Assembly: GCF_021608225.1 (NCBI RefSeq)
Contig: NZ_JAKIJS010000001.1
Coordinates: 1,240,001-1,304,000, forward strand
Direction of reading: 5' to 3'
Origin: Pseudalkalibacillus berkeleyi
Lineage (GTDB): Bacteria; Bacillota; Bacilli; Bacillales; Fictibacillaceae
DNA: 64,000 nucleotides
Positions 18,381-50,855 of this stretch are shown in pieces; positions within the stretch are counted from its first letter, which is position 1; each line of letters opens with the position of its first letter. The notes beneath the pieces are model-generated. The model saw only the letters and a list, made by a program, of their open reading frames with translations. It was not told the origin of the DNA and ran no database searches. The position numbers were made by a program, and so were the translations under genes.

Positions 18381-18905
18381 ATGACTGCTAGAATACAAGT
18401 AATTGAAAGTGATCAAGCTGAGGGAAAGATGAAGGAATTGTACGATCGTTTCAATGGTCAAATGGCAAATATTTTGAAGATCCACTCCTTAAATCCAAAA
18501 TCATTGGAAGCACATTTAGATTACTACCGTGTCATTATGTTTGGTAAATCTCCTCTTCCAAGACGACTTCGTGAAATGATTGCAACAGTCGTTTCCACAA
18601 CGAATGAATGTTTCTACTGAATAGAACATCATGGGGCGGCGCTCCATTTACTAGTTAAAGACGAAAAGTTTGTTGAACAAATAAAACGTGACTACAAATT
18701 AGCGGAATTAAACCAAAAAGAAATATCCATACTGGACTACGCTGTTAAATTGACTAAAAAACCAAGTAGTGTAAAGGATCAAGATGTGAAAGTACTGAGA
18801 GATACTGGTTGCTCAGATCAAGAGATTCTTGATATTTGTCAAATCGCATCATATTTTAATTTTGTAAATCGAATGGCAGAAGGACTTGGTGTAGAGTTAG
18901 AGTAG
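18381..18905 (+). CDS. AhpD-like (carboxymuconolactone decarboxylase family) protein with in-frame TGA at the redox cysteine; probable selenoprotein
   Basis: A conventional reading stops at the TGA at 18618-18620 after 79 codons, but the same frame stays open for 94 further codons to TAG 18903, giving 174 residues. Across the TGA the protein reads TNECFY-U-IEHHGAAL; the AhpD/CMD family has C there (CxYCxxHH). The TGA therefore replaces the second active-site cysteine, giving CxxU. A 17-nt stem-loop begins 10 nt after it. The gene starts at ATG 18381 after AAGGGGGAA. The family reduces peroxides through its CxxC pair. Pseudogenisation by a point mutation is the alternative; the two similar cases at 49-51 kb make it unlikely. 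Confidence 0.85.
18631..18647 (+). promoter_or_regulatory. candidate bacterial SECIS stem-loop
   Basis: ATGGGGC (18631-18637), loop GGC, GCTCCAT (18641-18647): a 7-bp stem including one G-T pair. It lies 10 nt after the TGA, with two G at the start of the loop 17 nt after it. These values fit the known bacterial rule of a G-containing apical loop about 16-37 nt after UGA, and the 17-nt size equals the minimal E. coli fdhF element. Confidence 0.7.
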
Positions 18906-18940
18906 AACAATGTATGTAGACATATAATAGTATCAACTTT

Positions 18941-18972
18941 GAAGAGGTTGACGATATTACGTCAACCTCTTC
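18941..18972. terminator. perfect 13-bp hairpin between convergent genes
   Basis: GAAGAGGTTGACG / CGTCAACCTCTTC with a 6-base loop. No long T-run follows on either strand, so efficiency as an intrinsic terminator is uncertain, but the position between two convergent 3' ends suggests that role. Confidence 0.6.
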
Positions 18973-19006
18973 CATTCGTTATTACCTAATTCTTACATAA
19001 TCACCC

Positions 19007-19588
19007 TTACTTTAATAACCTTTTAGCTTCTAATAAACGTTGAAATGTAGTGAATAATTCGATTGCAAAGAAAATCATAGTGATTACAGTTAAGTAATCA
19101 GTAAAGATCATCATCAGTGAAAAGAGAATAAAACCTTCTGTTCTTTCTGCTAAACCTGCTTGGTAGTAAAAAGATTTGATCCCGTTTTTTTCAGATAATG
19201 CGCCTACAGTTAAGAAAACGGTCATTGCAAAGATAATGGAAACACTTAAGAGAAGTAAAGCCCACATAGAATTCGTATATCTAAATGCAAGCCCAAGAAT
19301 TACACTTATTTCAACTAATCGATCAAATGTGATGTCTAGTAGAGTACCCCATGATGACGGTTTTGTTTTTCTAGCCATTGTACCATCAACAGCATCTATG
19401 AAACCTGAAAACCATAGAATAAACACAGCAAGGAACGTATATCCAAAGTAAATGAAAATCCCTGAAGAAACGCCTATAATAAACCCTAAAACTGTGACTT
19501 GATTAGCAGAAAGCCCTAATTTCAGGAAGAAATCCGCTGTTTTTTCAATGAATGGTTGAACATATTTTCTACCATGTGTATCAAGCAT
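19007..19588 (-). CDS. CDP-alcohol phosphatidyltransferase family protein
   Basis: A 193-residue membrane enzyme that joins a CDP-linked lipid or alcohol to a second alcohol in phospholipid-type synthesis. The catalytic motif D-x2-DG-x2-AR-x8-G-x3-D-x3-D is complete in IDAVDGTMAR through WGTLLDITFD at about residues 63-90. About five or six transmembrane segments are present. It is divergent from the ABC importer genes. E. coli ynjF, in the ynj cluster next to ynjBCD, is the same family, so the association may be functional. Confidence 0.82.
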   Translation of the reverse strand: MLDTHGRKYVQPFIEKTADFFLKLGLSANQVTVLGFIIGVSSGIFIYFGYTFLAVFILWFSGFIDAVDGTMARKTKPSSWGTLLDITFDRLVEISVILGLAFRYTNSMWALLLLSVSIIFAMTVFLTVGALSEKNGIKSFYYQAGLAERTEGFILFSLMMIFTDYLTVITMIFFAIELFTTFQRLLEAKRLLK

Positions 19589-19783
19589 TGTGTTATACCA
19601 CCTAACGATAAAGAATACTTAGATATGTACTAAGTTTAACCATTTCTGGAGAAAAGAACAGTAATGCATCTTACATCGTAAGTAAGATTGTAAGATTAAT
19701 TACATATATCATTTATGACTTTTACTATACTTACATTAGATAGGATACAACAGAAAATCAAATATCCTTTGGAGGTTATGTGT

Positions 19784-21010
19784 ATGAAGAGCAAATTAAC
19801 CATGATCATATTGACGCTTATGATCATCTTAGCTGCATGTGGAGATAAAGATCCTCAGTCAAAAGAATCACTTAACAAAGACTGGAATCAGATTGAGAAA
19901 GATGCGAATGGTTCTACTGTTAATTTATTTATGTGGGGTGGAGATAACGGTATTAATCGTTACATTGACGAATGGGTAACTCCGAAATTAAAGGAAAAGC
20001 ATAACATTACATTAAAGCGCCATCCAATGAATACAAATGAATTCATTCAAAAGTTACAAACCGAAAAGAAAGCTGGGAAAGATCGAGGGACGATCGACAT
20101 CATCTGGATTAATGGAGAGAATTTCAAAAATGCAAAAGAAAATGAATTACTCTTAGGCTCTTTCGCTTCTAAATTGCCTAATAATCAAGAATTTATTGAT
20201 CAAGATAAAGCGTTTATTAAAACAGATATGGGGACAAAAATTGATGGAATGGAGGCACCTTGGGGTAATGTACAGTTTGTCATGTGGTATGACGCAAAAA
20301 AGGTACAATCACCACCTAGAAATTTTGAGGAATTAAACAGCTTTCTCAAAAAAAATCCAGGTACATTCACATACCCTAATCCAAAAGACTTCAGTGGTAA
20401 CGCATTCCTTAGGCATTTATTATATGAAAAGACAGATAAAAATCCGAAATTAAACGAAACGTCCGATCCATCATGGCTAGATGAAAGAGATGAGGCGTTC
20501 TGGAGTTACTTACAAGAAATTACACCTAATTTATGGAGGAACGGAGAGACCTATCCTGAGTCATTATCTCAATTGGACCAAATGTATAGTAAAGGTGAAG
20601 TATGGTTTACATTTGGTTTCAATGAAGCTCGAGGGGAAGGGTTAATTAAAGATGGCGTATTTCCCAAATCCACAAAATCATATGTACTAGACGTTGGATC
20701 GATTGGAAACACACATTATTTAAGTATTCCATTTAACAGCCCGAATCCTGATGGAGCAATGACAGCTATTAATTTCATGGAATCTCCAGAAGCGCAATTG
20801 GCCAAAATGGACCCTTCAATGTGGGGGGAAGGTATGGTACTGGATCTAGAAAGTCTTCCTAGTGAATTTCAAGAAAAAACGGAAGCTCTTGATCGAGGAG
20901 ATACCGTTCTATCGACTCAAACATTAGAAGATGCTTATTTACCAGAACTTGATTCCAATTATATTGATTGGATTAAGGAGAATTGGTTAGATGAAGTTGT
21001 TCAGAAATAA
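19784..21010 (+). CDS. ABC transporter substrate-binding lipoprotein (YnjB-like)
   Basis: A 408-residue exported lipoprotein with a signal peptide ending ILAACGDK, C about residue 19 being the lipidation site. The mature part has the architecture of the extracellular solute-binding family 1 (NLFMWGGDNGINRYIDEWV at its start, AMTAINFMESPEAQ later) and resembles E. coli YnjB. The ligand is unknown. GGAGG 8 bases before ATG 19784 fixes the start over a longer reading from 19715. It is first gene of an importer operon and overlaps the permease gene by 20 bases. Confidence 0.8.
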   Translation: MKSKLTMIILTLMIILAACGDKDPQSKESLNKDWNQIEKDANGSTVNLFMWGGDNGINRYIDEWVTPKLKEKHNITLKRHPMNTNEFIQKLQTEKKAGKDRGTIDIIWINGENFKNAKENELLLGSFASKLPNNQEFIDQDKAFIKTDMGTKIDGMEAPWGNVQFVMWYDAKKVQSPPRNFEELNSFLKKNPGTFTYPNPKDFSGNAFLRHLLYEKTDKNPKLNETSDPSWLDERDEAFWSYLQEITPNLWRNGETYPESLSQLDQMYSKGEVWFTFGFNEARGEGLIKDGVFPKSTKSYVLDVGSIGNTHYLSIPFNSPNPDGAMTAINFMESPEAQLAKMDPSMWGEGMVLDLESLPSEFQEKTEALDRGDTVLSTQTLEDAYLPELDSNYIDWIKENWLDEVVQK

Positions 21011-21857
21011 GCGAATAAAACCTTATTTATTACTATTACCAGCTTTCGTATTAACAGTAGGCTTACTAGGATATGGGACATTATATGGAATGTTACAAAG
21101 CTTTCAAAAGGACCTCGAATGGTCCTTTGATGCTTATATAGAGCTCATTCATTTAAAGGCGTTTAAAACTTCCTTGATTTATAGCCTATTCATCACATTA
21201 CAATCAACACTACTTGCATTGGGAATTGGTATGGCGATCACGCATTTCCTATATCCGTATCTTCAAAAAGATAAATGGAAAGCTGTCATTTGGATCCCTA
21301 TGTTATTTCCACACTTTGCTGCTGGTTACTTGATTGTAATGATCTTTTCAGATAGTGGATGGATGTCTAGCTTGTTCATGCAAATGGGTCTTATACAGCA
21401 ACTAGACCAATTTCCCAACTTAGTAAACGATTCGAAGGGTGTAGGGATCATTCTAACCTACACTTGGAAAGAGATTCCTTTTGTTGTTCTTATGTTACTG
21501 CCTATCTACGCGCAAATGGATAGTCGTTTAAAAGACGTAGCTACTACATTAGGTGGAAATAAACTACAAGTTTTCTTATCTGCTCAGTGGCCATTTCTTT
21601 GGCCAACACTTGTTGAAATTGCATTAATATTATTTGCCTTTATTTTTGCAGCTTTTGAAGTGCCATATTTACTTGGTGTAACTTATCCTCAGATGACGCC
21701 AGTCTTGGCATTTGAATGGTTCTTTGATGGGAATTGGGATCAGAGACCCCTTGCATTTGCTTCTATGGTTATCGTTACACTATGGATCGTAGTATTGACA
21801 TCCATCTCTTATTCGTCAATTCAAAAGTATAGGCACCGTCTGATGAGAGGGAGTTAA
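20991..21857 (+). CDS. ABC transporter permease
   Basis: A 288-residue inner-membrane permease with six hydrophobic segments. The EAA loop that contacts the ATPase is visible near residue 185 (DVATTLGGNKLQVFLSAQWPFLWPTL region, with the conserved A...G pattern). It pairs with the next permease; E. coli YnjC is a single fused protein equivalent to both. AAGGAG lies 10 bases upstream, inside the preceding gene. Confidence 0.82.
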   Translation: MKLFRNKRIKPYLLLLPAFVLTVGLLGYGTLYGMLQSFQKDLEWSFDAYIELIHLKAFKTSLIYSLFITLQSTLLALGIGMAITHFLYPYLQKDKWKAVIWIPMLFPHFAAGYLIVMIFSDSGWMSSLFMQMGLIQQLDQFPNLVNDSKGVGIILTYTWKEIPFVVLMLLPIYAQMDSRLKDVATTLGGNKLQVFLSAQWPFLWPTLVEIALILFAFIFAAFEVPYLLGVTYPQMTPVLAFEWFFDGNWDQRPLAFASMVIVTLWIVVLTSISYSSIQKYRHRLMRGS

Positions 21858-21860
21858 GAT

Positions 21861-22655
21861 ATGTTAAGGAGATTATTAACCATTTTGATACTGGTCGTCT
21901 CATTAATTGTAACGGTTGGACCTGTTTTGCTCGTACTGATCCAAAGTATCTCGTTTCAATGGAGGTGGCCAGATTTATTCCCAAATGAGTTAAGACTCGA
22001 TGCTTGGTATGCAGTTTTCGCCGATCCAAGTCTCACACATGCGTTAAAATATTCCATGATTATTACTGCTTCTGTCGTGATGTTAACAATTGTCATCAGC
22101 TTGCCGGCAGCACGGGCGTTAGCGTTTGATCAGTTTAAGGGAAAGTCTTTTATAGAAACGGTACTTATGCTCCCATTACTCATCCCATTATTGTTTATAG
22201 TAATGGGAATCCATTTAAGTATGATCAGGCTTAACCTAGCAGATACACTATCTGGTGTCATACTCGTTCATTTGTTACCTACAGTACCTTATGCAATTAG
22301 GATATTAAGAACAGGATATGAAAGGATTGGCTTAAAATGGTATGAGCAGGCGACTGTCCTTGGGGCAAGCCGACTAAAACAATTCTGGACGATAACTGTT
22401 CCGCTAATAATGCCGAGTATAAGAAGTGCAATCGTATTAACGGTCGTGATTTCGTTAAGTCAATACGCATTAACAGCAATAATAGGTGGGGGTGTGGTTA
22501 CTACATTGCCGATTATTTATTATCCATATTTCAGTAGTGCCAATCAATCTATTATGGCTGCTTTCACAATGCTTTTTGCATTTCTACCCATATTATTTTG
22601 GTTCTGTATTGAATTGGTCTGCAAATCTGTTACAACAATGATCAAACAACCTTGA
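21861..22655 (+). CDS. ABC transporter permease
   Basis: A 264-residue second permease of the importer with six hydrophobic segments and an EAA-type loop near residue 165 (YEQATVLGASRLKQFWTITVPLIMPS region). GAGAGGGAG precedes the ATG, 3 bases after the previous stop, so translation is tightly coupled. Together with the preceding permease it forms the membrane channel. Confidence 0.82.
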   Translation: MLRRLLTILILVVSLIVTVGPVLLVLIQSISFQWRWPDLFPNELRLDAWYAVFADPSLTHALKYSMIITASVVMLTIVISLPAARALAFDQFKGKSFIETVLMLPLLIPLLFIVMGIHLSMIRLNLADTLSGVILVHLLPTVPYAIRILRTGYERIGLKWYEQATVLGASRLKQFWTITVPLIMPSIRSAIVLTVVISLSQYALTAIIGGGVVTTLPIIYYPYFSSANQSIMAAFTMLFAFLPILFWFCIELVCKSVTTMIKQP

Positions 22656-22673
22656 CGAAAGGAAATTAAATAT

Positions 22674-23627
22674 ATGGAGAAATTCGTTGAATTAAGAAAT
22701 ATAAGCAAACATTATCAAGAAGCAGTATCCGTCTTAGACCGAATTTCCTTATCCATTCAAAAAGGAGAAATATTAAGCATAGTAGGTCCTTCAGGGTGTG
22801 GCAAATCAACTTTGTTGAGATGTATTGCGGGTTTAGAAGAATACGAAGGTACGATCCAAATGAATGGAGATACATCAACTGAAAATAGAACAATTGTCCT
22901 TATGTTTCAAGAATCGTTGTTATTTCCACATCTAACAGTATTAGAAAACGTTACTTACGGTTTGAAGATGAAGAAAATTCCCAAGAAAGAAAGAATACAA
23001 TCAGCTCAAACTATGTTAGATAAGGTAGAGATGACTGCACATACAACAAAATATCCATATGAACTATCGGGTGGACAACAACAAAGAGTTGCATTAGCCA
23101 GGGCTTTAGTAATGAAACCAGATCTATTGTTATTGGATGAACCGTTTAGTAGCCTAGATCAATCCTTGCGATATGATCTCCGGTTGTATGTTCGCGATTT
23201 ACTCGTTTCAGAAGGCGTGACCTCACTCTTCATTACACATGATAAAGAGGAGGCATCGTTTATGGGTGATCGAATCGCTGTCATGAATAATGGGGAAATA
23301 CAACAAGTTGGACATCCTGAAGAGGTAGCTCTACGTCCAAGTAATCGGTTTGTTGCCCATTTCTTTTCAGAAGGATTGTTAGTAGAAGATGGCTTTATAT
23401 CTTCAAGGGATTTAGAGGTCTTTCAAAAGAATACGAAACACGAAATGATCAAAGTAGAAGGTAGAGTTGTTAATAAGAGCATGGAACACGGTGAACGTAT
23501 TTATCACATTCATATTCCGACAACAAATCAAACCATTACGTTGCCATCTAAACAAAAGTTCGAAGATGGTGAACCGATTTATTTACAATATTCAAAGTCA
23601 GACATCCATTATATAAATCACAACTAA
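22674..23627 (+). CDS. ABC transporter ATP-binding protein (YnjD/PotA-like)
   Basis: A 317-residue ATPase. Walker A GPSGCGKST (about 40), signature LSGGQQQRVA (about 135), Walker B LLLLDEP (about 158) and H-loop ITHDKEEA are all intact. A C-terminal regulatory domain of about 90 residues resembles the TOBE-type extension of the spermidine/iron/molybdate importers. Last structural gene of the importer; followed after 12 bases by a TVP38 gene. Confidence 0.88.
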   Translation: MEKFVELRNISKHYQEAVSVLDRISLSIQKGEILSIVGPSGCGKSTLLRCIAGLEEYEGTIQMNGDTSTENRTIVLMFQESLLFPHLTVLENVTYGLKMKKIPKKERIQSAQTMLDKVEMTAHTTKYPYELSGGQQQRVALARALVMKPDLLLLDEPFSSLDQSLRYDLRLYVRDLLVSEGVTSLFITHDKEEASFMGDRIAVMNNGEIQQVGHPEEVALRPSNRFVAHFFSEGLLVEDGFISSRDLEVFQKNTKHEMIKVEGRVVNKSMEHGERIYHIHIPTTNQTITLPSKQKFEDGEPIYLQYSKSDIHYINHN

Positions 23628-23639
23628 AGGGGAATCGTA

Positions 23640-24314
23640 ATGAAAACCTTGTTTAATTATAAATGGTTAAAATGGTTACTAATATCTGTATTTGTCGTAT
23701 TTGCCATGTGGTTTAGTACGACACAACTAAATTTAGACGCTAAAGAAATTCGAGATTGGATTATAGGATTTGGCATTTTTGCTCCAATTATATACATGCT
23801 GTTTTATACTGTACGACCACTCATATTCTTTCCAGCGTCAATTCTATCGATTACAGGTGGACTCGCATTCGGTCCACTCTTTGGGACAATCTACACTGTC
23901 CTTGGAGCAACAGCTGGTGCATTAGTCTCCTTCATTATCGCAAGGAAATTGGGAAAGAACGTTGCAAATAAGGAATGGAAAGGCCGAGGGAAAGCAATTC
24001 AATCACAATTAGAGAAAAATGGTTTCTTTTATGTACTTTTATTTAGATTCATTCCGTTGTTCAATTTTGACCTTATTAGTTACACTGCTGGTGTTTCAAA
24101 GGTACGGTTCCGAGACTTTTTTATAGGCACTTTAATTGGTATTATACCTGGCACTTTTGCCTACAATTTCCTTGGTAGCAGCTTAGTGAGTGGAGATCCG
24201 AAAATTATTCTTTTTGCAATCATTGTATTTGCAATCTTAACCGTAATACCGATGTGGGTGCGCAAGAAATGGCTCAACAAAAAAGAAGGAGTGCTTAAAG
24301 ATGAAACCGTATGA
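23640..24314 (+). CDS. TVP38/TMEM64 (DedA-like) membrane protein
   Basis: A 224-residue protein with about five hydrophobic segments. The family core is visible: RPLIFFPASILSITGGLAFGP, then FIIARKLGK, then LLFRFIPLFNFDLISYTAGVSKVRF. E. coli YdjX and YdjZ belong here. The DedA/TVP38 superfamily handles lipid or small-solute movement across the membrane, and a DedA-type protein has been linked to selenite entry in another bacterium. It overlaps the next reductase gene by 14 bases. Confidence 0.82.
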   Translation: MKTLFNYKWLKWLLISVFVVFAMWFSTTQLNLDAKEIRDWIIGFGIFAPIIYMLFYTVRPLIFFPASILSITGGLAFGPLFGTIYTVLGATAGALVSFIIARKLGKNVANKEWKGRGKAIQSQLEKNGFFYVLLFRFIPLFNFDLISYTAGVSKVRFRDFFIGTLIGIIPGTFAYNFLGSSLVSGDPKIILFAIIVFAILTVIPMWVRKKWLNKKEGVLKDETV

Positions 24315-25731
24315 TTTGATCGTAATTGGAGGCGGTGCCGGAGGGCTAACCGTTGCTGCAGGTGCTGCAAGTTTAGGCGCAAATGTAGCTTTGATAGAGA
24401 AGAATGAACGCCTTGGTGGAGATTGTCTCCATTACGGGTGTGTACCATCGAAAGCATTGATCACAAGTGCTAAAGAAGTATATACAATCAAAATGGCCTC
24501 CGAAAAATACGGCATGACTGTAAGTGGTCAACCGGATATATCTGTAGCAATGCAACGGGTACGTGAAGCGATTGAAGAAATCCAACATCATGATAGTCAT
24601 GAACGCTTTGAATCCCTCGGTGTAGACATTTTCTCAGAACGAACTGGTCGATTCATTGGTGCGAAACAGTTTGAGCTAGACAACGGGAAGATTTTGAGTG
24701 GGAAAAGATTTGTCATTGCAACAGGTTCCAGACCCTTTATTCCTCCAATTAAAGGAATTGAAGAAGTTAATTATTTGACGAATGAAACGATTTTCAACTT
24801 GAACGATCTTCCTAAAAGAATGGTCGTTATTGGTGGCGGACCGATTGGACTTGAGATGGCACAATCATTTGCCCGATTTGGTTCTGAAGTTACTGTTGTG
24901 GAAACATCAGATCGTATTTTCGGAAGAGAAGATGAAGAGCTGATTCCAATCATTAAACATGAATTAGAACAAGAACTTACATTTTCTTTTAATTCCATAG
25001 CAAAAAGTGTGCGTAATGAGAATGACCAGACAATACTCACCGTTGAGAAAGAAGGAACTGCCTTTGACATCGAAACAGATGCCATTCTTATTGCGACAGG
25101 TCGTAAGCCAAACACGGATGGCTTAGGACTAGAGGAAATTGGAGTAAAGCTTGAAAAAGGAAATGTTGTCGTTAATGAACACTTACAATCCACTGTTCCA
25201 CATATATTCGCAGTTGGAGATACGAACGGAAAGTATCCTTTTACACATGCAGCTGGAATGGAAGGAAAGCTAGTCGTCCGCAATGCCTTAATCGGTATTA
25301 AAGGTAAAATTAATTATGATAACTTACCGTGGGTCACTTACACAGATCCTGAGGTATACCACCTTGGAATGACTGAAAAAGAAGCGGTGGACAAGTATGG
25401 TAAGTCAATCAAAGTGTTTAGAGTAAAAAACAAAGAAGTAGATCGATTTGCTGCTGATCGGGATGACGTTGGACTTCTCAAAGTCATTACAACTGCAAAA
25501 GGCGAGATATTAGGCGCACATGCAGTTGGTCGTAATGCTGGGGACTGGATGCAGGAAATTGTTTTCGCGAAAACAGAAGGGCACAAGATAGGAGACATTT
25601 CAAATGTCATCCATCCATATCCAACTCACGGTGCGATCTTAGAAAATGCGGCTAACCAATTTTGGAGAGAAAAATTATTTGAAGGCGTCTTACCGAAAAT
25701 CACCGAAAAGTATATACGATTTTTCAGATAA
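24301..25731 (+). CDS. pyridine nucleotide-disulfide oxidoreductase, mercuric reductase-like
   Basis: A 476-residue FAD flavoprotein of the lipoamide dehydrogenase/MerA group. The N-terminal FAD motif GGGAGGLTVA, redox-active disulfide GGDCLHYGCVPSK (C-x4-C), NAD(P) motif VIGGGPIGLEMAQ near 175-190, ATG...ADGL-type segment and C-terminal dimer interface with HPYPTHGAILE (H...E pair) are all present. It lacks an N-terminal metal-binding domain and the C-terminal cysteine pair of true MerA, so Hg reduction is doubtful. This type is commonly linked or fused to TVP38 proteins; the substrate is unknown. Confidence 0.82.
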   Translation: MKPYDLIVIGGGAGGLTVAAGAASLGANVALIEKNERLGGDCLHYGCVPSKALITSAKEVYTIKMASEKYGMTVSGQPDISVAMQRVREAIEEIQHHDSHERFESLGVDIFSERTGRFIGAKQFELDNGKILSGKRFVIATGSRPFIPPIKGIEEVNYLTNETIFNLNDLPKRMVVIGGGPIGLEMAQSFARFGSEVTVVETSDRIFGREDEELIPIIKHELEQELTFSFNSIAKSVRNENDQTILTVEKEGTAFDIETDAILIATGRKPNTDGLGLEEIGVKLEKGNVVVNEHLQSTVPHIFAVGDTNGKYPFTHAAGMEGKLVVRNALIGIKGKINYDNLPWVTYTDPEVYHLGMTEKEAVDKYGKSIKVFRVKNKEVDRFAADRDDVGLLKVITTAKGEILGAHAVGRNAGDWMQEIVFAKTEGHKIGDISNVIHPYPTHGAILENAANQFWREKLFEGVLPKITEKYIRFFR

Positions 25732-25738
25732 CCGTAAA

Positions 25739-25777
25739 AAAACATCTGACCATAAGCAACTAAGGGTCAGATGTTTT
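25739..25777 (+). terminator. Rho-independent terminator
   Basis: AACATCTGACC (25741-25751) / GGTCAGATGTT (25765-25775), preceded by A and followed by T; ends the importer-reductase operon. Confidence 0.88.
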
Positions 25778-25817
25778 GATTATACATGGGTGTAAGGAAT
25801 GAATCATGTTTGGTAAC

Positions 25818-26581: not shown

Positions 26582-26617
26582 TAACTTTATAGAATAAAGG
26601 TGAATAGGGGGTGTGTC

Positions 26618-42892: not shown

Positions 42893-42970
42893 ACAAAGGA
42901 TCGTACATGTATATCCCTCTATTGACATACATAAGTAAGAAAGGATTCATCGTCAGGAGGGAAATTTCTG

Positions 42971-44554
42971 ATGAAACTAACGCCATTTATTAATGCTCTT
43001 CCCTTACCTAAAGTCCTTAAGCCATTGTTTATAAAAAATGGTATCGCATATTATGAAGTGAAAATGAAACAAGTCTATCAAAAACTCCATAAAGAATTGC
43101 CTGAAACCGTTGTTTGGGGCTATCAAGGTACCTTCCCCGGACCGACTATAGAAGTAAGAAAGAATGATGCCATCTTCGTAAAGTGGATAAACAAACTTCC
43201 ACAACAATCTATATTACCCTTAGATCATACCGTTCATGGTGCAGGTTCTGACGTTCCAGATGTTCGTACAGTTGTGCATTTACACGGTGCACGAGTTCGT
43301 CCGGAAAGTGATGGATACCCAGATGCATGGTTCACTAAAGATTTCCATCAAGTAGGTCCGTTCTTCACTACAGAAACTTATGAGTATCCAAACAACATGG
43401 AAAGTACAATGCTTTGGTATCATGATCACGCGATCGGGATTACAAGATTAAATATCTATGCAGGACTAGCCGGGTTATATGTGATAAGAGACAAAAATGA
43501 GGAAAAGCTCAATATTCCAAAAGGTGAGTATGAGATTCCTTTACTCATACAGGATCGTTCATTTAATCCTGATGGGACACTGTATTATCCAGCAAAACCA
43601 GACGATGAAAAGACAACAATTTACCCTTCGGTTGTTCCAGAGTTTTTTGGCGAAACCATCCTAGTCAATGGAATGGTTTGGCCCTATTTACAAGTTGAAC
43701 CCAGAAAATATCGTTTGCGATTTGTGAATGGATCTAACTCAAGGTTTTACAGGGTATCACTCAGCACCAATCAATCTTTCTATCAAATTGGCACAGACGG
43801 TGGCTTCATTGAACATCCGGTTGAAGTCAAAGATTTCTTACTTTCACCAGGTGAAAGGATAGATGTGATTGTTGACTTTTCTACCTTTAAAGACAAAACC
43901 ATAATAATGGAAAATCGAGCTCCTACCCCTTTTCCGGATGGTCGCAGTCCAGACCCTAACACGACTGGTCGGATAATGGCATTCAAGGTTACAAAACGTC
44001 TGAAACAAAAAGACTTAACCATCATTCCATATCAATTAAACAAAATTAAGTTTTACAAAGAGAATCAATCATCTAGAACAAGATACTTATCGCTAATTCA
44101 TACGAAAGATCAATACAGTAGACCACTAATGTTATTAGATGATTTGCGATGGGATGATCCGATTACCGAAAACCCTAAGCTAGGTTCAATTGAAATTTGG
44201 AGTTTAATCAACATTTCTGATGATACTCACCCTATACACTTGCATCTCATACAATTTCAAATCCTAGATCGTCAACCTTTTGATGTTGAACATTTCAATG
44301 AGACCGGCGAAATTAAATATTCAGGCGAGAAGAGGGGACCGGAAATCACCGAGAGTGGATGGAAGGATATTGCGAATTCTCACCCAGGCGAAGTCACACG
44401 TATTATTGGTAAATTCAAACCCTATACCGGACGTTATGTTTGGCATTGTCACATGTTAGAGCACGAAGATCAAGAAATGATGAGACCTTATGAAGTCATC
44501 CAAAGGGACCGTTTCTTCAAAAGGCTTTTCCGTAAAATTCGCAAAAAGGAGTAG
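42971..44554 (+). CDS. CotA-like multicopper oxidase (spore coat laccase family)
   Basis: A 527-residue three-domain multicopper oxidase. All four copper motifs are intact: VHLHGARV (about 105), WYHDHAIGIT (about 150), HPIHLHLIQF (about 420) and VWHCHMLEHEDQEMM (about 490). It lacks a signal peptide, as does CotA of Bacillus subtilis, the outer spore-coat laccase/bilirubin oxidase. TCAGGAGGG stands 9 bases before the ATG. Confidence 0.88.
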   Translation: MKLTPFINALPLPKVLKPLFIKNGIAYYEVKMKQVYQKLHKELPETVVWGYQGTFPGPTIEVRKNDAIFVKWINKLPQQSILPLDHTVHGAGSDVPDVRTVVHLHGARVRPESDGYPDAWFTKDFHQVGPFFTTETYEYPNNMESTMLWYHDHAIGITRLNIYAGLAGLYVIRDKNEEKLNIPKGEYEIPLLIQDRSFNPDGTLYYPAKPDDEKTTIYPSVVPEFFGETILVNGMVWPYLQVEPRKYRLRFVNGSNSRFYRVSLSTNQSFYQIGTDGGFIEHPVEVKDFLLSPGERIDVIVDFSTFKDKTIIMENRAPTPFPDGRSPDPNTTGRIMAFKVTKRLKQKDLTIIPYQLNKIKFYKENQSSRTRYLSLIHTKDQYSRPLMLLDDLRWDDPITENPKLGSIEIWSLINISDDTHPIHLHLIQFQILDRQPFDVEHFNETGEIKYSGEKRGPEITESGWKDIANSHPGEVTRIIGKFKPYTGRYVWHCHMLEHEDQEMMRPYEVIQRDRFFKRLFRKIRKKE

Positions 44555-44827
44555 AGAGTCACCAATTTACCATCATCATCTATTTCATTTACATCCAAAA
44601 TTTATCAATAAATGTTTGAATTTTTCAAATTTTATAATAAAATAGAATTATAATGTTTAATAAAAAACCAGCTCTACACAAAACACTAGTGAATCAACCA
44701 CTTTCTAGCCTTCTACTTTTTATCCCTATCTGAAAGTCAGCATCAGACTTTACATCCCTTAATATAGTTAAAAGTAATTAGACAAATTTAAACTTGCACG
44801 ATTTTCGTAGAAAAGGAGAGGTGTCCA

Positions 44828-45658
44828 ATGCTACATATCGTCGCTTGCATTAAGCAAGTGCCTGATACGAAAATCATCAAGATGAATCCCAAAACAAATA
44901 CAATGGATCGGGCAAGTGCGCCAGCGATTTTGAACCCTTATGATGCACATGCCGTTGAAGAAGCAGTAAGAATTAAGAACCGTTATGGAGGGACTGTTTC
45001 TGTATTGACGATGGGCCCGCCACCAGCCGTAAAGGCCATCAAAAAGTGCATTGAAATTGGCGCTGATGAAGGCTATATGATTTCAGATCGAAAATTCGCA
45101 GGTGCAGATACCTTAGCCACTAGTTATGCACTGACGAAGGCGATTGATAAAATCGCGAAAATACAGCCCGTGGACCTCATCATATGTGGAAAGATGACAA
45201 TAGATGGTGATACTGGTCAAGTAGGTCCGGGAATCGCTCGTCGCTTAGATATCCCGCCACTGACATCCGTTAAGAAAGTCGAAGAAGTAAATAAGGATCA
45301 AGGATATGTCGTGGTACATCGTAAAATTGAAGATGGACATGAAGTCATTCAATCTAGCTTGCCTTGTCTGATGTCTGTTGAAAAGGAAATCAATGAAGTG
45401 CCTTATTCTTCATTCCCGAATATGCTCAATGCTGCACGATATCAGCCAGTCATTTGGTCCGTTGATGATTTAGAGGACATTGACATTAAACAATTAGGTT
45501 TAAAAGGCTCACCTACAATTGTTGCAAAAGTATGGGCTCCCCCAAAACCAGAAGGCGGAACAATGTTCGAAGGAAATCCGAAAGAACAAGTCGAGCAATT
45601 ACTTTCGGTCGTTCTAGAAAAGAAAGAACTCTTTCATACTAAGGGGGGATCCGAGTGA
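44828..45658 (+). CDS. fixA: electron transfer flavoprotein beta subunit, FixA-like
   Basis: A 276-residue subunit. It opens LHIVACIKQVPDTKIIKMN and contains DADTGQVGPG-type AMP/FAD segment (DGDTGQVGPGIARRLDIP, about 120) and the C-terminal WAPPKPEGG. Together with the next three genes it forms an ETF:quinone oxidoreductase set with ferredoxin partner. AAAGGAG precedes the ATG, and the stop overlaps the etfA-like GTG by 4 bases. Confidence 0.85.
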   Translation: MLHIVACIKQVPDTKIIKMNPKTNTMDRASAPAILNPYDAHAVEEAVRIKNRYGGTVSVLTMGPPPAVKAIKKCIEIGADEGYMISDRKFAGADTLATSYALTKAIDKIAKIQPVDLIICGKMTIDGDTGQVGPGIARRLDIPPLTSVKKVEEVNKDQGYVVVHRKIEDGHEVIQSSLPCLMSVEKEINEVPYSSFPNMLNAARYQPVIWSVDDLEDIDIKQLGLKGSPTIVAKVWAPPKPEGGTMFEGNPKEQVEQLLSVVLEKKELFHTKGGSE

Positions 45659-46689
45659 ATTTTGAAGAATATAGTGGCGTTTGGGTTTTCATTGAAGAGA
45701 ATGAAGGCAATATCGCACAAGTTTCTTTAGAATTGCTTGGTGCAGGTAGACGTCTTGCAGATAAACGAGGTGTAGACCTTTGTGGTGTCATAATCGGAAA
45801 TGGTGTTACTTTATTATCTGAAACGGTATTCGAGTATGGTGCCGATGTTGTCTATGTTTACGATCAAGAGATCTTCACACATTATCGAACCGAGTCATTT
45901 ATGAAAGCACTTCTTCATTGTAGTGAAAAGTATAAGCCTGAAATTATTTTATATGGTGCGACATCTACAGGAAAAGATTTAGCTAGTGCTGTTGCCACAG
46001 ATCTTCCGACAGGTCTAACTGCAGATACGACCGAGTTAGATGTTGAAGAAGATACAGGCCTTCTACTTGCTAGTCGACCAGCCTTTGGTGGGAACATTAT
46101 GGCGACTATATTATGTAAAAAATATAGACCTCAAATGGCAACGGTTAGGCCTAAAGTTATGAAAGCATTATCACCTGAACCAGGCCGTACAGGAAAGTTA
46201 GTTGAGGAAACGATTGACGTAAAAGAAGAAGATATTAGGACTAAGGTATTAGAAATCGTCAAATCAACTACAAAAAAAGTAAGGATTGATGAAGCTGATA
46301 TTGTAGTGGCGGGTGGAAAAGGTTTAGGTAATGCAGATGGGTTTCAGCTCATCCATCAACTAGCTCAAGCACTTGGTGGTGCAGTTGGAGCTAGCCGAGA
46401 TGTTGTAGAGGCTGGCTGGGTAGAACACCCCCATCAAGTCGGCCAAACAGGTGTAACAGTTACACCTAAAATATACTTCGCAATCGGAATATCTGGTGCG
46501 ATTCAACATTTAGTTGGAATGAAAAATTCTGGCTTGATCATCGCTATCAATAAAGACCCTGATGCTGCAATTTTTGAAGCCAGTCATTATGGGATTGTTG
46601 GAGATGCATTTGAAATCGTTCCTTTACTTATACAAGAGTTCAGTAAAGCATTTGCTGAAGAGGAGGTCGATCATGTCCGAGAGGTTTGA
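45655..46689 (+). CDS. fixB: electron transfer flavoprotein alpha subunit, FixB-like
   Basis: A 344-residue subunit. The FAD-binding C-terminal domain reads VVAGGKGLGNADGFQLIHQLAQALGGAVGASRDVVEAGW, with GQTGVTVTPKIYFAIGISGAIQH and INKDPDAAIF following; these segments (from about 220 to 310) are hallmarks of ETF-alpha. The start is GTG 45655 after AAGGGGGG. Overlaps the fixC-like gene by 17 bases. Confidence 0.86.
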   Translation: MNFEEYSGVWVFIEENEGNIAQVSLELLGAGRRLADKRGVDLCGVIIGNGVTLLSETVFEYGADVVYVYDQEIFTHYRTESFMKALLHCSEKYKPEIILYGATSTGKDLASAVATDLPTGLTADTTELDVEEDTGLLLASRPAFGGNIMATILCKKYRPQMATVRPKVMKALSPEPGRTGKLVEETIDVKEEDIRTKVLEIVKSTTKKVRIDEADIVVAGGKGLGNADGFQLIHQLAQALGGAVGASRDVVEAGWVEHPHQVGQTGVTVTPKIYFAIGISGAIQHLVGMKNSGLIIAINKDPDAAIFEASHYGIVGDAFEIVPLLIQEFSKAFAEEEVDHVREV

Positions 46690-47968
46690 TTGTATCATTG
46701 TAGGTGCTGGTCCAGCTGGAATATCTTGTGCGTATGAACTCGGTAAAGGAGGTGCGAAAGTACTTCTCTTAGAGCGTGGGGAATATCCCGGGTCTAAAAA
46801 CGTCATGGGAGGCGTACTGTACCGACAAATGATGGAGGATGTCATTCCTGACTTTTATAAAGAAGCACCACTAGAGCGTCCCATTGTTGAACAGCGTTTT
46901 ATGATGATGGATAAAGAATCAGCAGTTACATTTGGCTATAAAGGGATGGAATGGGGAAAAGAGCCTTTCAACAACTTTACCGTCCTACGAGCAAAATTCG
47001 ATCAATGGTTTGCTTCGAAAGCTGTAGAGCAAGGTGCAGTGCTTGTGAATGAAACAGTAGTTACCGAATGTATCGTTGAAAACGGAAAGGTCGTAGGGGT
47101 CCGAACGGACAGACCAGACGGTGATGTATACGCTGATGTTGTGGTATTAGCAGATGGTGTCAACTCACTTCTTGCAAAATCACTTGGTTTCCATAAAGAG
47201 TATCGACCTGATGAAGTTGCACTAGCAACAATGGAAATCATTAAACTTGATAAAAAAATCATTGAAGATCGTTTCAATTTAGAACCTGATCAAGGCTGTA
47301 CGATCGAATTGTTCGGCGATGCAACCAAAGGTATTCTTGGGACAGGGTTCTTATATACAAACAAGGGTTCACTGAGCATAGGTGTAGGTACTCTGCTATC
47401 AGGTTTAATCAAGCACAAAATACGCCCACATGAATTGCTCGACTATGTGAAGAACCATCCAATGATTCGTCCTTACTTGCAAGGCGGAGAACAACAGGAA
47501 TATCTTGCCCACCTTATTCCTGAAGGTGGATACAAATCGATGGGTAAAGTAGTTGGCAACGGGGTCATCGTTGTAGGAGATGCCGCGCAACTTGTCAATG
47601 CGATTCATCGAGAAGGTTCGAATTTAGCGATGACCTCAGGTAGGTTTGCAGCTGAAGCTGTATTAAATGCGATGGAGATGGAAGATTTTACTGAATCTAC
47701 ACTAGACCAGTACCGGATCAAACTAATGGATAGTTTTGTTGGCCAGGATATGAAGAAGTATAAAGATTCTACACATCACTTTGATAAATTTCCACAATAT
47801 TTCGGTGATTATATTCCAATGATGAACCAAGCTGCTAGTCAAATGTTTACGGTAGACGGAAAATCAAAATGGGAAAAGCAAAAAAAGATCTGGAAAGACA
47901 TCGGAACGCCACGGGAAAAAATCAAAATTGCTCGAGACATGTATCGAGCATGGAAGGTGATGAAATAA
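46673..47968 (+). CDS. fixC: FixC-like FAD-dependent ETF:quinone oxidoreductase
   Basis: A 431-residue flavoprotein. The N-terminal VGAGPAGISCAYELGKGGAKVLLLER motif (about 9-33) binds FAD; GYKSMGKVVGNGVIVVGDAAQLVNAIHREGSNLAM near 300 is the second FAD and quinone-site segment. ATG 46673 follows GAGGAGG inside the fixB 3' end. The complex links a flavin-bifurcating ETF to the quinone pool. Confidence 0.87.
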   Translation: MSERFDCIIVGAGPAGISCAYELGKGGAKVLLLERGEYPGSKNVMGGVLYRQMMEDVIPDFYKEAPLERPIVEQRFMMMDKESAVTFGYKGMEWGKEPFNNFTVLRAKFDQWFASKAVEQGAVLVNETVVTECIVENGKVVGVRTDRPDGDVYADVVVLADGVNSLLAKSLGFHKEYRPDEVALATMEIIKLDKKIIEDRFNLEPDQGCTIELFGDATKGILGTGFLYTNKGSLSIGVGTLLSGLIKHKIRPHELLDYVKNHPMIRPYLQGGEQQEYLAHLIPEGGYKSMGKVVGNGVIVVGDAAQLVNAIHREGSNLAMTSGRFAAEAVLNAMEMEDFTESTLDQYRIKLMDSFVGQDMKKYKDSTHHFDKFPQYFGDYIPMMNQAASQMFTVDGKSKWEKQKKIWKDIGTPREKIKIARDMYRAWKVMK

Positions 47969-48264
47969 TGAATGAGGGGAAGAAGCCGCAATCAATAGAA
48001 GAAAAACAATACTTAGTTCGTTTTAATGCAGATACGAAATCTCATTTACATGTAAAGAATCCTGAAATTTGTTTGACAGATTGTCCAGATAAAATTTGTA
48101 CGTTATTCTGTCCTGCAGAAATTTACAAGTGGGAAGATATCCGGATGCACATTGGATATGAGGGTTGTCATGAATGTGGCAGCTGTCGGATTGGATGCCC
48201 ACACGAAAACATTGATTGGGTTTATCCAAAAGGCGGGCACGGCATCCTGTTTAGATTAGGTTAA
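47968..48264 (+). CDS. fixX: FixX-like ferredoxin partner
   Basis: A 98-residue ferredoxin-like protein. The cysteines lie in CLTDCPDKICTLFCPAEIY and YEGCHECGSCRIGCP, giving one [4Fe-4S] binding set (CxxCxxxxCP-type) as in FixX. The ATG overlaps the fixC TAA (TAATG). It transfers electrons between FixABC modules and quinone oxidoreductase. It closes the operon before a strong terminator. Confidence 0.85.
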   Translation: MNEGKKPQSIEEKQYLVRFNADTKSHLHVKNPEICLTDCPDKICTLFCPAEIYKWEDIRMHIGYEGCHECGSCRIGCPHENIDWVYPKGGHGILFRLG

Positions 48265-48300
48265 TCGGCAAGAAGAGATACGAATCACATTAGGCATAAT

Positions 48301-48357
48301 CAAGGGGCTGTGATAAAGTCAGTGAAAACTGACTTTATGACAACCCCTTGTTTTTTC
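48301..48357 (+). terminator. strong terminator of the fixABCX-like operon
   Basis: CAAGGGG...GTGATAAAGTCAGT / ACTGACTTTATGAC...CCCCTTG, followed by TTTTTT. Confidence 0.93.
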
Positions 48358-48446
48358 ATTCAATACATGAATGATATGTATCTTTGTACATTATTTCACA
48401 AATATGCACAAAAAGAGGAGAAGATATCTATACTTCTATCTCTCTT

Positions 48447-48773
48447 TTATTTAACAACTGTAAACAACTGATCTTCTTTTGCTTTTTTCTCTAACTCGCT
48501 CGTATAATCAATCGCCTTATGAATGGAGGTAAAGCTATCAGATACATAGTAGGGTAGTTTATAATCGAATCCACCACAATCCTTTGAAGGATAAATGATA
48601 ACATTCCATTGGTATGCACCAGTGTTTTTATCCATCTCGTTACCCTCAAGCGCAATCAACCAGTGGGTACACGTATCACAATCCGATTGTTCTTTAACAG
48701 ATGCACGATCTGCATCGCCTATCATTATCAAAGCTCTTTGATAAAACTCACCGTAATTTGGGGCATTTCTCAT
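48447..48773 (-). CDS. hypothetical protein, 108 residues, probably sporulation-expressed
   Basis: A soluble protein beginning MRNAPNYGEFYQRALIMIGD and carrying a CDTC pair near residue 32 and KDCGG near 65. The ATG at 48773 lies 8 bases after GGGAG; an alternative ATG two codons upstream is too close to it. GTACATATATT upstream resembles a sigma-K -10 element found before neighbouring spore genes. I do not recognise the family. Confidence 0.6.
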   Translation of the reverse strand: MRNAPNYGEFYQRALIMIGDADRASVKEQSDCDTCTHWLIALEGNEMDKNTGAYQWNVIIYPSKDCGGFDYKLPYYVSDSFTSIHKAIDYTSELEKKAKEDQLFTVVK

Positions 48774-48820
48774 AGGCATCACTCCCTTTATTACTTAATG
48801 ACATAAAAGTGTCTTATTCC

Positions 48821-48831
48821 AATATATGTAC
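48821..48831 (-). promoter_or_regulatory. sigma-K-like -10 element
   Basis: GTACATATATT on the minus strand, about 48 bases before the start at 48773. The CATATATT(G) core fits the sigma-K -10 consensus CATANNNTA in most positions. A clean -35 AC at 16-17 bp is not evident. Confidence 0.4.
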
Positions 48832-48880
48832 GACCTGATTAAATGATCATCAAAATTGTTGTAATTTCCTAATAAAAAAA

Positions 48881-48904
48881 TGAGATTGACATACGTCAAC
48901 CTCA
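48881..48904 (-). terminator. Rho-independent terminator of the yjcZ-type gene
   Basis: On the minus strand TGAGGTTGAC-gtat-GTCAATCTCA is followed by TTTTTTT. Confidence 0.85.
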
Positions 48905-48919
48905 TTACAAGACAATTTT

Positions 48920-49063
48920 CTAATACCAGAAACCGCCGCCACAACCTCTTCTACGACGATTGTTGCCACCGTAACCAGCCGCTCCTACGATAATTAACAA
49001 AATAAACAATACTAGGATCAAGGCAAAATATTTTCCGCCTACGCCACCAATTGCTTCACTCAC
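48920..49063 (-). CDS. YjcZ family sporulation protein
   Basis: A 47-residue mini-protein: GTG start after GGAGG, SEAIGGVGGKYFALILVLFI-type hydrophobic helix, then a basic and glycine-rich tail with NNRRRRGCGGGFWY. This is the YjcZ/YhaQ-like family of Bacillaceae sporulation membrane peptides. The preceding GTACATATATTA fits a sigma-K -10 element. Confidence 0.85.
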   Translation of the reverse strand: MSEAIGGVGGKYFALILVLFILLIIVGAAGYGGNNRRRRGCGGGFWY

Positions 49064-49085
49064 ATTAATAACCTCCTTTCCTTTC

Positions 49086-49097
49086 TAATATATGTAC
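49086..49097 (-). promoter_or_regulatory. sigma-K-like -10 element of the yjcZ-type gene
   Basis: GTACATATATTA on the minus strand, about 30 bases before the GTG start. CATATATTA matches CATANNNTA fully. Confidence 0.5.
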
Positions 49098-49204
49098 AAG
49101 CACCATTAAAGGGACAGGCATTCGAGTAGGAAATAGGAAAATAGGCAATATGTTTTTATTCAAACGCCAAACCCCTTATAATTTTGGAAAGGAGTGATAA
49201 AAAG

Positions 49205-49966
49205 ATGTTGCTAGAAAAATTACCTGAAGTTCAACTGCAAGATCTAAATGGAAATCCTTATTCGACTAACCAGTTAAAAGGAAAGAAAGCCTTAATTTTC
49301 ATGTGGGCTTCCTGGTGAAGATGTCGTGAGCAACTGCCTGGATGGCAGGAATTTTATGAAAACGTCGCAAATGAAGATTTTGAAATTCTTTCTGTAGCGG
49401 TAGACCTTCAAGGACCCGAAGTAGTAAAACCTTATGTAGGAGAAACCTCTTTCAAAACCGTTGTAGACAGCGAAAATAAGTTAAGTAGTCTATTTAATTT
49501 CAAAATTGTACCTAACGGCATATTTGTCGATAAAGACGGAACAATAAGGTTAATTAAGCAAGGGTTTAAGGTTACTGATGAAACACATACCTCAGCGGTA
49601 CAACAATTGATCAATAGTGAGGCGGATCGTATCGAGCTTGATGATCCTTATTATTCACCATCCACAGAAGTGGAGAAAGTACAAGTACAATTAGCCGAAA
49701 CCAAATTCAAGCTTGGGATGCAATATTTGAATAATGCAAACAAAGACGAAGCATTGAAAGAATTAGATGAGGCGATCAAACTTGATCCAGACAATTTCCT
49801 GATTCGAAAACAAAGATGGTATATACGTTATCCTGAAAAGTTTAACGGGACCATCGATACAGATTGGCAACAAGCGCTTCTGAAGCAGGAAAAGGAAGAT
49901 GAAGCCAAAGCGCGTGGTGACCTTGAATGTGGACCCGATGGTTGTGAAATACCAGGTACAAACTAA
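49205..49966 (+). CDS. TlpA/thioredoxin-like protein with in-frame TGA at the active site and a TPR-like C-terminus; probable selenoprotein
   Basis: Reading from ATG 49205, well placed after GGAAAGGAG, the frame meets TGA at 49316 (codon 38) and then stays open to TAA 49964, giving 253 residues. The context reads FMWASW-U-RCREQLPGW: thioredoxin-like proteins have Cys directly after this Trp, so the TGA gives a UxC active site. Residues about 1-140 are a TlpA/ResA-like fold (FEILSVAVDLQG, IVPNGIFVDKDGTIR). Residues about 160-215 look like a TPR pair (NNANKDEALKELDEAIKLDP), and the protein ends with a CGPDGC pair. No signal peptide is present. A stem-loop follows the TGA by 15 nt. It is 31 bases upstream of the DUF3179-like selenoprotein gene. 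Confidence 0.87.
49334..49348 (+). promoter_or_regulatory. candidate bacterial SECIS stem-loop
   Basis: CTGCC (49334-49338), loop TGGAT, GGCAG (49344-49348): perfect 5-bp stem beginning 15 nt after the TGA, with GG in the loop 21-22 nt after it. Same spacing, stem length and near-identical loop as the element in the next gene. Confidence 0.72.
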
Positions 49967-49997
49967 ACGTCAGAGTAGCAATCTGGAGGAGAATATC

Positions 49998-50855
49998 TTG
50001 GAAGAGCAACAATTTGATCGAAGTAGGGCGACATTGAAGAAGAAGGATTTGTTCACCCGATTCAATGTCAAAGACCATAAACATGTAAAAGACATTGAAA
50101 AGAGTAGTTTGAAATCGGATGACGAAATATTAGTAATTGAACGATTAGGGAAAAGACTTGCGTTCTCAATGAAGCAAATGGCTTACCACCACGTTGCTCA
50201 AGGGGAACTTTCAAATGAACCATACATTGTCAATTTCTGAGTCGTTTGCCATAGTGGAACTGGGATGGTTCCTATTGTGAATGGGAAAGTACATCATTTT
50301 GGTCCAAGAGGACTATACGACGGAATGGTATTAATAAGTGACGATGAAACCAATTCCTATTGGAATCATGTTACAGGTGAGTGTGTCTACGGAGAATTAG
50401 AAGGGGAACGGTTACAAACGTTTCCGATTGAACATACAACTGTTAAAGCTGCAATGAACAAATACAAAGATCTGAAGATCGCACTATTTAATCCTTCCAT
50501 CAAGATGAAGCTTCTTTCATTCGTTATGACTCGAGGTAAGAAAAAGAGTTTCTTACCTCCTGGTTTCGAGCAAACGATGGGTGTTCTGGATGATCGCCTA
50601 CCTAAAATGTCAAGTGGACTAGGCGTTATTTTAGGTGAACATCAACGATTTTATCCTGTCGATACGGTAAAAAGTAAGGGTGGGACGATTTACGATTCAA
50701 TACACGGTAGAACCGTTACGGTTCAGTTGAATCCCGATGCTGGAGTCCCTCAAGCGACCTTCACCGACAACCAGGTAGAAAAACCGATGCAGCTATTTAC
50801 GAGATGGTATGGCTTTAGCTTAACCTATCCTAATTGCGAAGTATACGATGGATAA
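49998..50855 (+). CDS. DUF3179-like protein with in-frame TGA at a CxxC position; probable selenoprotein
   Basis: A 285-residue reading from TTG 49998, 8 bases after CTGGAGGAG. It contains TGA at 50238-50240 (codon 81) and continues open to TAA 50853. Across the TGA it reads EPYIVNF-U-VVCHSGTGMVP, where DUF3179 proteins have a CxxC motif, so UxxC is formed. The downstream part (GKVHHFGPRGLYDG, DDETNSYWNHVTGE, GELEGERLQTFP) follows the DUF3179 pattern closely. Function of the family is not established. It is in an operon with the TGA-bearing thioredoxin-like gene, suggesting that the two interact. Confidence 0.84.
50256..50272 (+). promoter_or_regulatory. candidate bacterial SECIS stem-loop
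   Basis: GGAAC (50256-50260), loop TGGGATG, GTTCC (50268-50272): perfect 5-bp stem beginning 15 nt after the TGA, with GGG in the loop 22-24 nt after it. Confidence 0.72.

Follow-up and report, generated by a model that had tools for sequence, protein, structure and literature searches.

In-frame UGA codons at redox cysteine positions of three Pseudalkalibacillus berkeleyi genes very probably specify selenocysteine

How should a gene be read when its frame is interrupted by a stop codon precisely where a catalytic cysteine is expected? This question is raised by a stretch of 64,000 nucleotides from Pseudalkalibacillus berkeleyi (contig NZ_JAKIJS010000001.1 of assembly GCF_021608225.1, positions 1,240,001 to 1,304,000; hereafter the window), in which three genes carry in-frame TGA codons at positions 18618-18620, 49316-49318 and 50238-50240. 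All three codons occupy redox cysteine positions. When TGA is translated as selenocysteine (Sec, U), the surrounding motifs read CFYU in an AhpD-like protein, WASWURC in a TlpA/ResA-like protein and UxxC in a DUF3179 protein. An earlier note made from the letters of the window had proposed that these genes belong to a probable unreported Bacillaceae selenoproteome. From the genes for the Sec machinery, the conservation of the TGA codons, the hairpins that follow them, the constraint on both sides of each codon and the exchange of Sec for Cys among homologues, we judge it nearly certain that the three genes encode selenoproteins.

The earlier note had suggested a genome search for selA, selB, selC and selD, and had named the absence of tRNA-Sec and SelB as evidence against Sec insertion. 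All four genes are present in the genome to which the window belongs (G000; 3,496,200 bases in eight contigs). The tRNA-Sec scores 59.9 bits with RF01852 (Rfam cut-off 47) and is called SeC (tca) by ARAGORN, SelB (646 amino acids) scores 352.8 bits with TIGR00475 (cut-off 242.25), and both SelA (TIGR00474, 556 bits) and SelD (TIGR00476, 413.9 bits, with one in-frame TGA) exceed their cut-offs. In 14 well-known genomes examined as controls, the cut-offs were exceeded by tRNA-Sec in five, by SelB in two, by SelA in one and by SelD in two. Because the tRNA-Sec cut-off is reached in five of the controls, this feature discriminates least well and is not decisive alone. The genes selC, selB, selD and selA form one cluster (C1:1.094-1.104 Mb) that lies 136-146 kb before the window and that also holds a SelW gene and a resolvase-type recombinase gene.

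Two parts of this machinery are found in nearly all genomes examined from the family Fictibacillaceae, in which NCBI places Fictibacillus. SelA exceeds its cut-off in 32 of 34 family genomes, and SelD, with one TGA in each case, does so in the same 32; genomes G029 and G022 have neither. The context of the SelD TGA is GGUGCK in all 30 SelD loci examined. Between selB and selD/selA in the P. berkeleyi cluster lie genes for a GT4 glycosyltransferase and a PhnD/PhnE/PhnC-type ATP-binding cassette (ABC) transporter (L021:9545-12992). The leading NCBIfam models for the glycosyltransferase, SenB among them, all remain below cut-off, and the transporter binding protein resembles a putative selenate-binding family, likewise below cut-off. 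These genes possibly serve selenium uptake or a step in selenium small-molecule metabolism.

A simpler explanation for the interrupted frames would be sequencing errors or recent nonsense mutations that have turned the genes into pseudogenes, as might be supposed from the presence of an in-frame TGA in each gene and from the occurrence of DUF3179 in a single genome among the 34. For the AhpD-like gene (18381..18905, forward strand; 174 amino acids with Sec at residue 80), this explanation meets the same TGA in divergent relatives. The codon (18618..18620, forward strand) is TGA in 10 of 10 aligned sequences, its own included, and aligns with the second Cys of the CxxC motif in both of the solved homologues shown. 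Full-length close homologues with TGA occur in five family genomes, counting that of P. berkeleyi, and the four others are 68-83% identical to its protein. Matches of any kind, including weak and partial rows, extend to nine of the 34 genomes, with the fragment in G027 covering only residues 112-174. The protein was also found in nine genome-contig records, all nine with TGA, of which three duplicate G031, G033 and G007. The sequences are identical to those of Rossellomorea aquimaris EaN35-1 for G031, Bacillus sp. Marseille-Q3570 for G033 and Fictibacillus nanhaiensis DP2N0-2 for G007. Another of the nine, a homologue in a Chloroflexi metagenome-assembled genome (43% identity), keeps the TGA as well and stands outside the 10-sequence alignment. 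A class-wide search of 398 genomes (E <= 1e-20) gave matches in five; those other than P. berkeleyi lack the TGA, and three of these four read CxxC. The protein itself scores 142.9 bits with TIGR01926 (cut-off 81.8), and its CFYU corresponds to CxxU, which places it among the AhpD-like selenoproteins. G028 (L033, G028:C1:3338098-3338562) and G007 (L035, G007:C1:946070-946510) possess a further, longer gene related to AhpD, whose single TGA falls in the motif NECFYUT; by motif alone it resembles the NF041238 AhpD_rel_CFYUT family.

The TlpA-like gene (49205..49966, forward strand) shows comparable conservation. It encodes 253 amino acids with Sec at residue 38, and combines a TlpA/ResA-like thioredoxin domain with a TPR-like region and a C-terminal CGPxGC motif. 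Its ATG start at 49205 is preceded by AAAGGAG, and a longer form starting from TTG at 49184 is possible. The thioredoxin domain is recognised by AhpC-TSA (6e-14, over cut-off), and TPR_2 matches at 1.8e-5 with 25 bits, slightly under its cut-off of 27. The codon at 49316..49318 (forward strand) is TGA in 6 of 6 aligned sequences, its own included, and aligns with the first active-site Cys in both solved homologues shown. The active site reads URC, which is one residue shorter than UxxC, such that U-R-C stands for the C-x-x-C of the solved homologues. The full gene with TGA is carried by 6 of the 34 family genomes, its own included; the five others are of the same genus and encode proteins 62-77% identical, and, apart from two genomes that match only the C-terminal part, the remaining TlpA matches in the family are more distant thioredoxin-type proteins. 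No signal peptide was recognised by eye. Nothing was concluded from the predicted structure, whose mean predicted local distance difference test score is 47.4. In those two, G008 and G003 (L043 and L044), a stretch matching the C-terminal TlpA part (residues 158-252) stands alone in a 115-amino-acid frame that has no thioredoxin domain.

The same TGA thus recurs in genomes at 62-83% protein identity and in named records of other genera, which excludes a pseudogene or sequencing error at the AhpD-like and TlpA-like genes; the earlier note had considered pseudogenes very difficult to reconcile with three such hits. For the DUF3179 gene (49998..50855, forward strand; 285 amino acids with Sec at residue 81, in FUVVCHSG), the corresponding claim stands on different ground, namely on homologues from another family that share the codon. 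The protein matches PF11376 at 3.9e-24 (86 bits, cut-off 27) with the Sec at a Cys column, and so belongs to this group. At E <= 0.001, none of the other 33 genomes of the family has a match, and a search with the single protein against the genome-contig collection found no relative. Among 398 genomes of the class, 10 have DUF3179 matches, and the nine besides P. berkeleyi all belong to one other family. These nine genomes contain 20 full-length homologues at 41-51% identity, of which 8 have TGA and 12 have Cys at one and the same column. The codon at 50238..50240 (forward strand) accordingly falls in a column of 9 TGA against 12 TGC or TGT codons in an alignment of 21 full-length sequences, its own included, from which three short fragments were excluded. 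One Bacilli genome of the other family even carries Sec and Cys copies in tandem (G103:C2:127067-129949). Taken over the three genes, we consider errors or recent nonsense mutations at three redox cysteines to be extremely improbable.

Each of the three TGA codons is followed by a hairpin that resembles a bacterial selenocysteine insertion sequence (bSECIS). On the forward strand, these are ATGGGGC-GGC-GCTCCAT in the AhpD-like gene (18631..18647, loop 17 nucleotides after UGA), CTGCC-TGGAT-GGCAG in the TlpA-like gene (49334..49348, loop 20 nucleotides after UGA) and GGAACT-GGGAT-GGTTCC in the DUF3179 gene (50256..50272, loop 21 nucleotides after UGA). They begin 10, 15 and 15 nucleotides past the TGA, at the positions where the earlier note had placed them, and the hairpins of that note are indeed present, although longer stems found here overlap its shorter ones with wider loops. 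According to a recent review (PMC13188914), bSECIS loops carry G at position 1 or 2, often followed by G or U, and most of them lie 16-37 nucleotides from the UGA. The three sites satisfy the geometry of the earlier note as well as our coding of this published rule. In the background of 2908 TGA trinucleotides on both strands of the window, 164 satisfy the coded rule, and 64 have the hairpin geometry of the earlier note together with GG in the loop, a geometry that was defined after the sites had been seen. When the GG condition is dropped, 693 of the 2908 carry such a hairpin, and therefore a hairpin by itself means little. For DUF3179, the top-scoring hairpin under the rule is another one, with its loop 36 nucleotides after UGA; the hairpin at 50256 also fits.

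The hairpin codons are also subject to synonymous constraint. We measured the rate of identical codons at codon pairs where the residue is conserved, with hairpin codon ranges that were preset from the hairpin positions. This rate is 0.91 in codons +3 to +10 of AhpD (10 sequences) versus 0.45 elsewhere, 0.93 in codons +5 to +11 of TlpA (6 sequences) versus 0.43 elsewhere, and 0.73 in codons +5 to +10 of the Sec forms of DUF3179 (9 sequences) versus 0.41 outside. In the Cys forms of DUF3179 (12 sequences), the rate over the hairpin codons is 0.37 versus 0.42 outside. Scans of eight-codon windows made without preset ranges point to the same places. In AhpD, the starts of the five best of 166 windows range from codon -1 to codon +3 relative to the TGA, the best of 240 in TlpA begins at codon +5, and the best of 280 in Sec-DUF3179 lies on or beside the hairpin, whereas the best of 282 in Cys-DUF3179 lies elsewhere. 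In addition, the DUF3179 stem retains 6 of 6 pairs in all nine TGA forms, and 10 of the 12 Cys forms lose pairs.

Constraint at the protein level extends to both sides of the TGA. In 13 pairwise comparisons (four of AhpD, five of TlpA and four of DUF3179), the proportion of nonsynonymous differences (pN) ranges from 0.06 to 0.40 and that of synonymous differences (pS) from 0.61 to 0.93. None of the 13 shows a pN above roughly half of pS, whether before or after the TGA, and pS is near saturation in most of them. This restraint on amino acid change past the TGA also argues against pseudogenes. It bears equally on the proposal that the UGA codons are selenium-dependent switches with a functional short product, or that truncation dominates because Sec is inserted only very rarely. 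UGA recoding does compete with release factor 2 (RF2), and the abstract of PMC4513850 puts its efficiency in vivo at 30-40%, which can be counted in favor of this proposal. However, the clear amino acid constraint past UGA indicates that the full-length protein is kept by selection, and we rate a switch or rare insertion as very unlikely.

We compared 416 kb of the 3.50 Mb P. berkeleyi genome (about 12%) with 436 kb of G028 for conserved TGA sites under a codon-position filter; unfiltered TGA scans were rejected as too noisy. The scan is blind to genes that lack a G028 homologue in the compared stretch or that are cut by the ends of the stretch. Of 37 passing TGA sites, six were accepted by family match, and these correspond to SelD, SelW, a glutaredoxin, AhpD, TlpA and a PCYCGC protein. 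Six other passing sites were inspected as open reading frames (ORFs); two are junctions of adjacent genes, and the other four, judged by eye, did not look like genes. The remaining 25 were set aside, most with an antisense-looking codon pattern, and a selenoprotein could be among them.

The genes newly recognised in this manner are all on the forward strand. A SelW/Rdx selenoprotein with the motif CMQU (L021:14214-14459, G000:C1:1102214-1102459) matches PF10262 at 1.6e-22 and exceeds the cut-off of TIGR02174. Its gene sits between the divergent selD and selA genes, and a SelW gene with TGA stands beside selD in six other SelD loci of the genus that were examined. In total, SelW adjoins selD in 7 of 30 SelD loci examined, as counted by a fixed motif within ~1.5 kb, such that other loci could still have SelW. 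A glutaredoxin-like selenoprotein with the motif SUPPC (L156:14309-14551, G000:C1:1180348) scores 99.1 bits with TIGR02196 (cut-off 88.55), and its TGA is followed by a hairpin, GTGAAAGA-GTT-TCTTTCAC, that is also found in G028. The third is a PCYCGC/CYCXC lipoprotein with the motif GLGUGIC (L160:8077-8529, G000:C1:1312386), which scores 96.5 bits with PF13798, over its cut-off, and 72 bits with NF041379, below its cut-off of 90. In all three genes, the TGA and similar sequence after it are shared with G028. Counting SelD and DUF3179, the genome has at least seven selenoproteins. All seven accepted genes satisfy the coded bSECIS rule that holds for 164 of the 2908 background TGAs. The predicted elements of SelD, SelW and glutaredoxin (three of the seven) have three-base loops starting with GU (GUG or GUU), unlike the GG-type loops of the three hairpins in the window. 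The assignment of the TGA codons at redox cysteines as Sec sites, first made in the earlier note, is thus supported by the machinery, by TGA in relatives and by further selenoprotein genes.

That several genes are interrupted by TGA might also be expected if the codon had acquired a new meaning, such as Trp, or were commonly read through. Yet TGA terminates 12 of 48 hand-picked ORFs of the window, and in the two cases inspected, neighbouring genes are set apart by a TGA stop that G028 shares. The accepted in-frame TGA codons coincide with Cys columns and precede a hairpin, and the genome encodes a tRNA-Sec. We give practically no credence to reassignment, which the earlier note had likewise dismissed.

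Some observations weigh against the selenoprotein interpretation and need to be set beside it. The scan filter also passed 27 TAA and 11 TAG control sites, and therefore proves nothing by itself; acceptance was decided by the family matches. G029 and G022, which lack SelA, also lack Sec-AhpD and Sec-TlpA, but most genomes with SelA lack these genes too, and so this co-absence says little. The TlpA-like protein falls short of the cut-off of its nearest selenoprotein model, NF041054 (132.5 bits, cut-off 300). For DUF3179, the genus contains no match, and the support for its TGA comes from the 41-51% identical homologues of another family. Two of the 12 Cys forms of DUF3179 retain a fully paired hairpin. 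Finally, pN of AhpD is higher after the TGA (0.12-0.24) than before it (0.06-0.21) in four of four comparisons, while still remaining well below pS.

Selenocysteine decoding of the three genes would proceed by a familiar route. Delivery of Sec at UGA by SelB and a hairpin is established for E. coli-type systems. By analogy, SelD would make selenophosphate, SelA would convert Ser-tRNA(Sec) to Sec-tRNA(Sec), and SelB bound to the hairpin just past the UGA would deliver Sec-tRNA(Sec), preempting termination by RF2. The products would be thiol oxidoreductases in which Sec takes the place of one redox Cys, with redox pairs formed by C-x-x-U in the AhpD-like protein, U-R-C and, separately, the C-terminal CGPxGC in the TlpA-like protein, and U-x-x-C in DUF3179. 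We infer that Sec is actually inserted and that the enzymes have these activities; TlpA and DUF3179 may act as partners.

The last two genes are probably co-transcribed, since the TTG start of DUF3179, located behind GGAGGAG, lies only 31 nucleotides past the TlpA stop. The gene beyond DUF3179 (window 50904-51179, reverse strand) is small and Cys-rich and encodes a phospholipase A2-like domain (PF08398), and in G031 and G028 TlpA is followed directly by the phospholipase A2-like gene, with DUF3179 absent between them. The simplest reading of this arrangement would be that DUF3179 was gained by horizontal transfer, hairpin included; repeated loss in other family members may be an alternative. 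The four genes upstream of TlpA (window 44828-48264) resemble an electron-transfer set of the FixABCX type. Pfam assigns the third as an FAD oxidoreductase and the fourth as Fer4_ETF_QO; the first two we presume to belong by their position.

The structure of DUF3179 is predicted with confidence (90.5), and by eye the model has two halves with strands and helices in similar order. At E <= 0.001 it matches no solved structure; at E <= 10 there are 759 matches, of which the best 50 were inspected. Among these best 50, the only match of high probability is local, to the Rieske-like NirD 3c0d (Foldseek probability 0.95, E 0.095, 85 columns). A profile search of solved sequences returned one unrelated weak row (E 0.73). 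The model offers no more than a lead toward a Rieske-like fold.

A search for formate dehydrogenase (TIGR01591) in eight genomes of the genus revealed no full-length gene with TGA. Three of the eight reach the cut-off, all without stops; two TGA codons occur in a partial match in G027 (positions 6-319), and P. berkeleyi has only rows below cut-off, also without stops. One ORF of the scanned DNA contains GRQPW, which we take to be a CydA-like motif, and we likewise assume that the Fictibacillus lineage is aerobic. One could go further and picture a family of selenoprotein-rich, aerobic, spore-former-type Bacilli without Sec formate dehydrogenase, in which the gained DUF3179 forms a relay with the TlpA-TPR-CGPxGC protein and is itself a duplicated Rieske-like fold with U-x-x-C in place of the iron-sulphur site. 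This full picture we consider rather unlikely.

According to PMC13188914, aerobic bacteria seldom retain selenoproteins. Should the present family prove to be aerobic, it would be a valuable exception, with SelA and Sec-containing SelD in 32 of its 34 genomes and seven or more selenoproteins in one of them. Gene callers that stop at TGA will label such genes as truncated or as pseudogenes. Moreover, genus-wide orthologues and the side-by-side Sec and Cys copies of DUF3179 offer natural tests of the benefit of Sec and of the gain and loss of SECIS elements. We found no description of selenoproteins in the Fictibacillus lineage in the open-access literature searched, and to this extent the proteome is unreported, as the earlier note had it. 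This does not extend to Bacillales as a whole, since three selenoproteins of three families are tabulated for Firmicutes/Bacillales in a 2006 survey (PMC1794560), and the families are catalogued in Table 1 of PMC13188914. This table includes SelD, SelW-like, glutaredoxin, AhpD-like (TIGR01926, CxxU), UGC-containing TlpA, DUF3179 (UxxC/T) and CYCXC (PF13798) selenoproteins. The SelB/SECIS mechanism and the protein families are already known; what may be new is that the trait is family-wide in Fictibacillus and related bacteria, and that DUF3179 has come to lie next to TlpA.

The system shares with the SelB/SECIS system of the E. coli type the genes selA, selB, selC and selD, and a UGA followed by a hairpin within the coding region whose loop carries G and then G or U. 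It differs by the lack of a full-length formate dehydrogenase gene with TGA in the eight genus genomes, and by a sel cluster that additionally holds SelW, the PhnD/E/C-type ABC transporter and the GT4 glycosyltransferase. The AhpD-like protein agrees in family and in its CFYU motif with the AhpD-like selenoproteins (TIGR01926, CxxU) of Table 1 in PMC13188914, but its host lineage differs. With the UGC-containing TlpA proteins (WAxxUGC, NF041054), the TlpA-like protein shares a ResA-like domain whose active site reads WAxxU-x-C, yet it has URC rather than UGC, scores 132.5 against a cut-off of 300, and carries a TPR-like region and a C-terminal CGPxGC. By its score and its URC motif, it looks like a TlpA/ResA-type selenoprotein outside the NF041054 equivalog. 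DUF3179, over the cut-off of PF11376 and with UxxC, resembles the DUF3179 selenoproteins (UxxC/T) of the same Table 1, and here it is the sole match among 34 family genomes, set between TlpA and the phospholipase A2-like gene.

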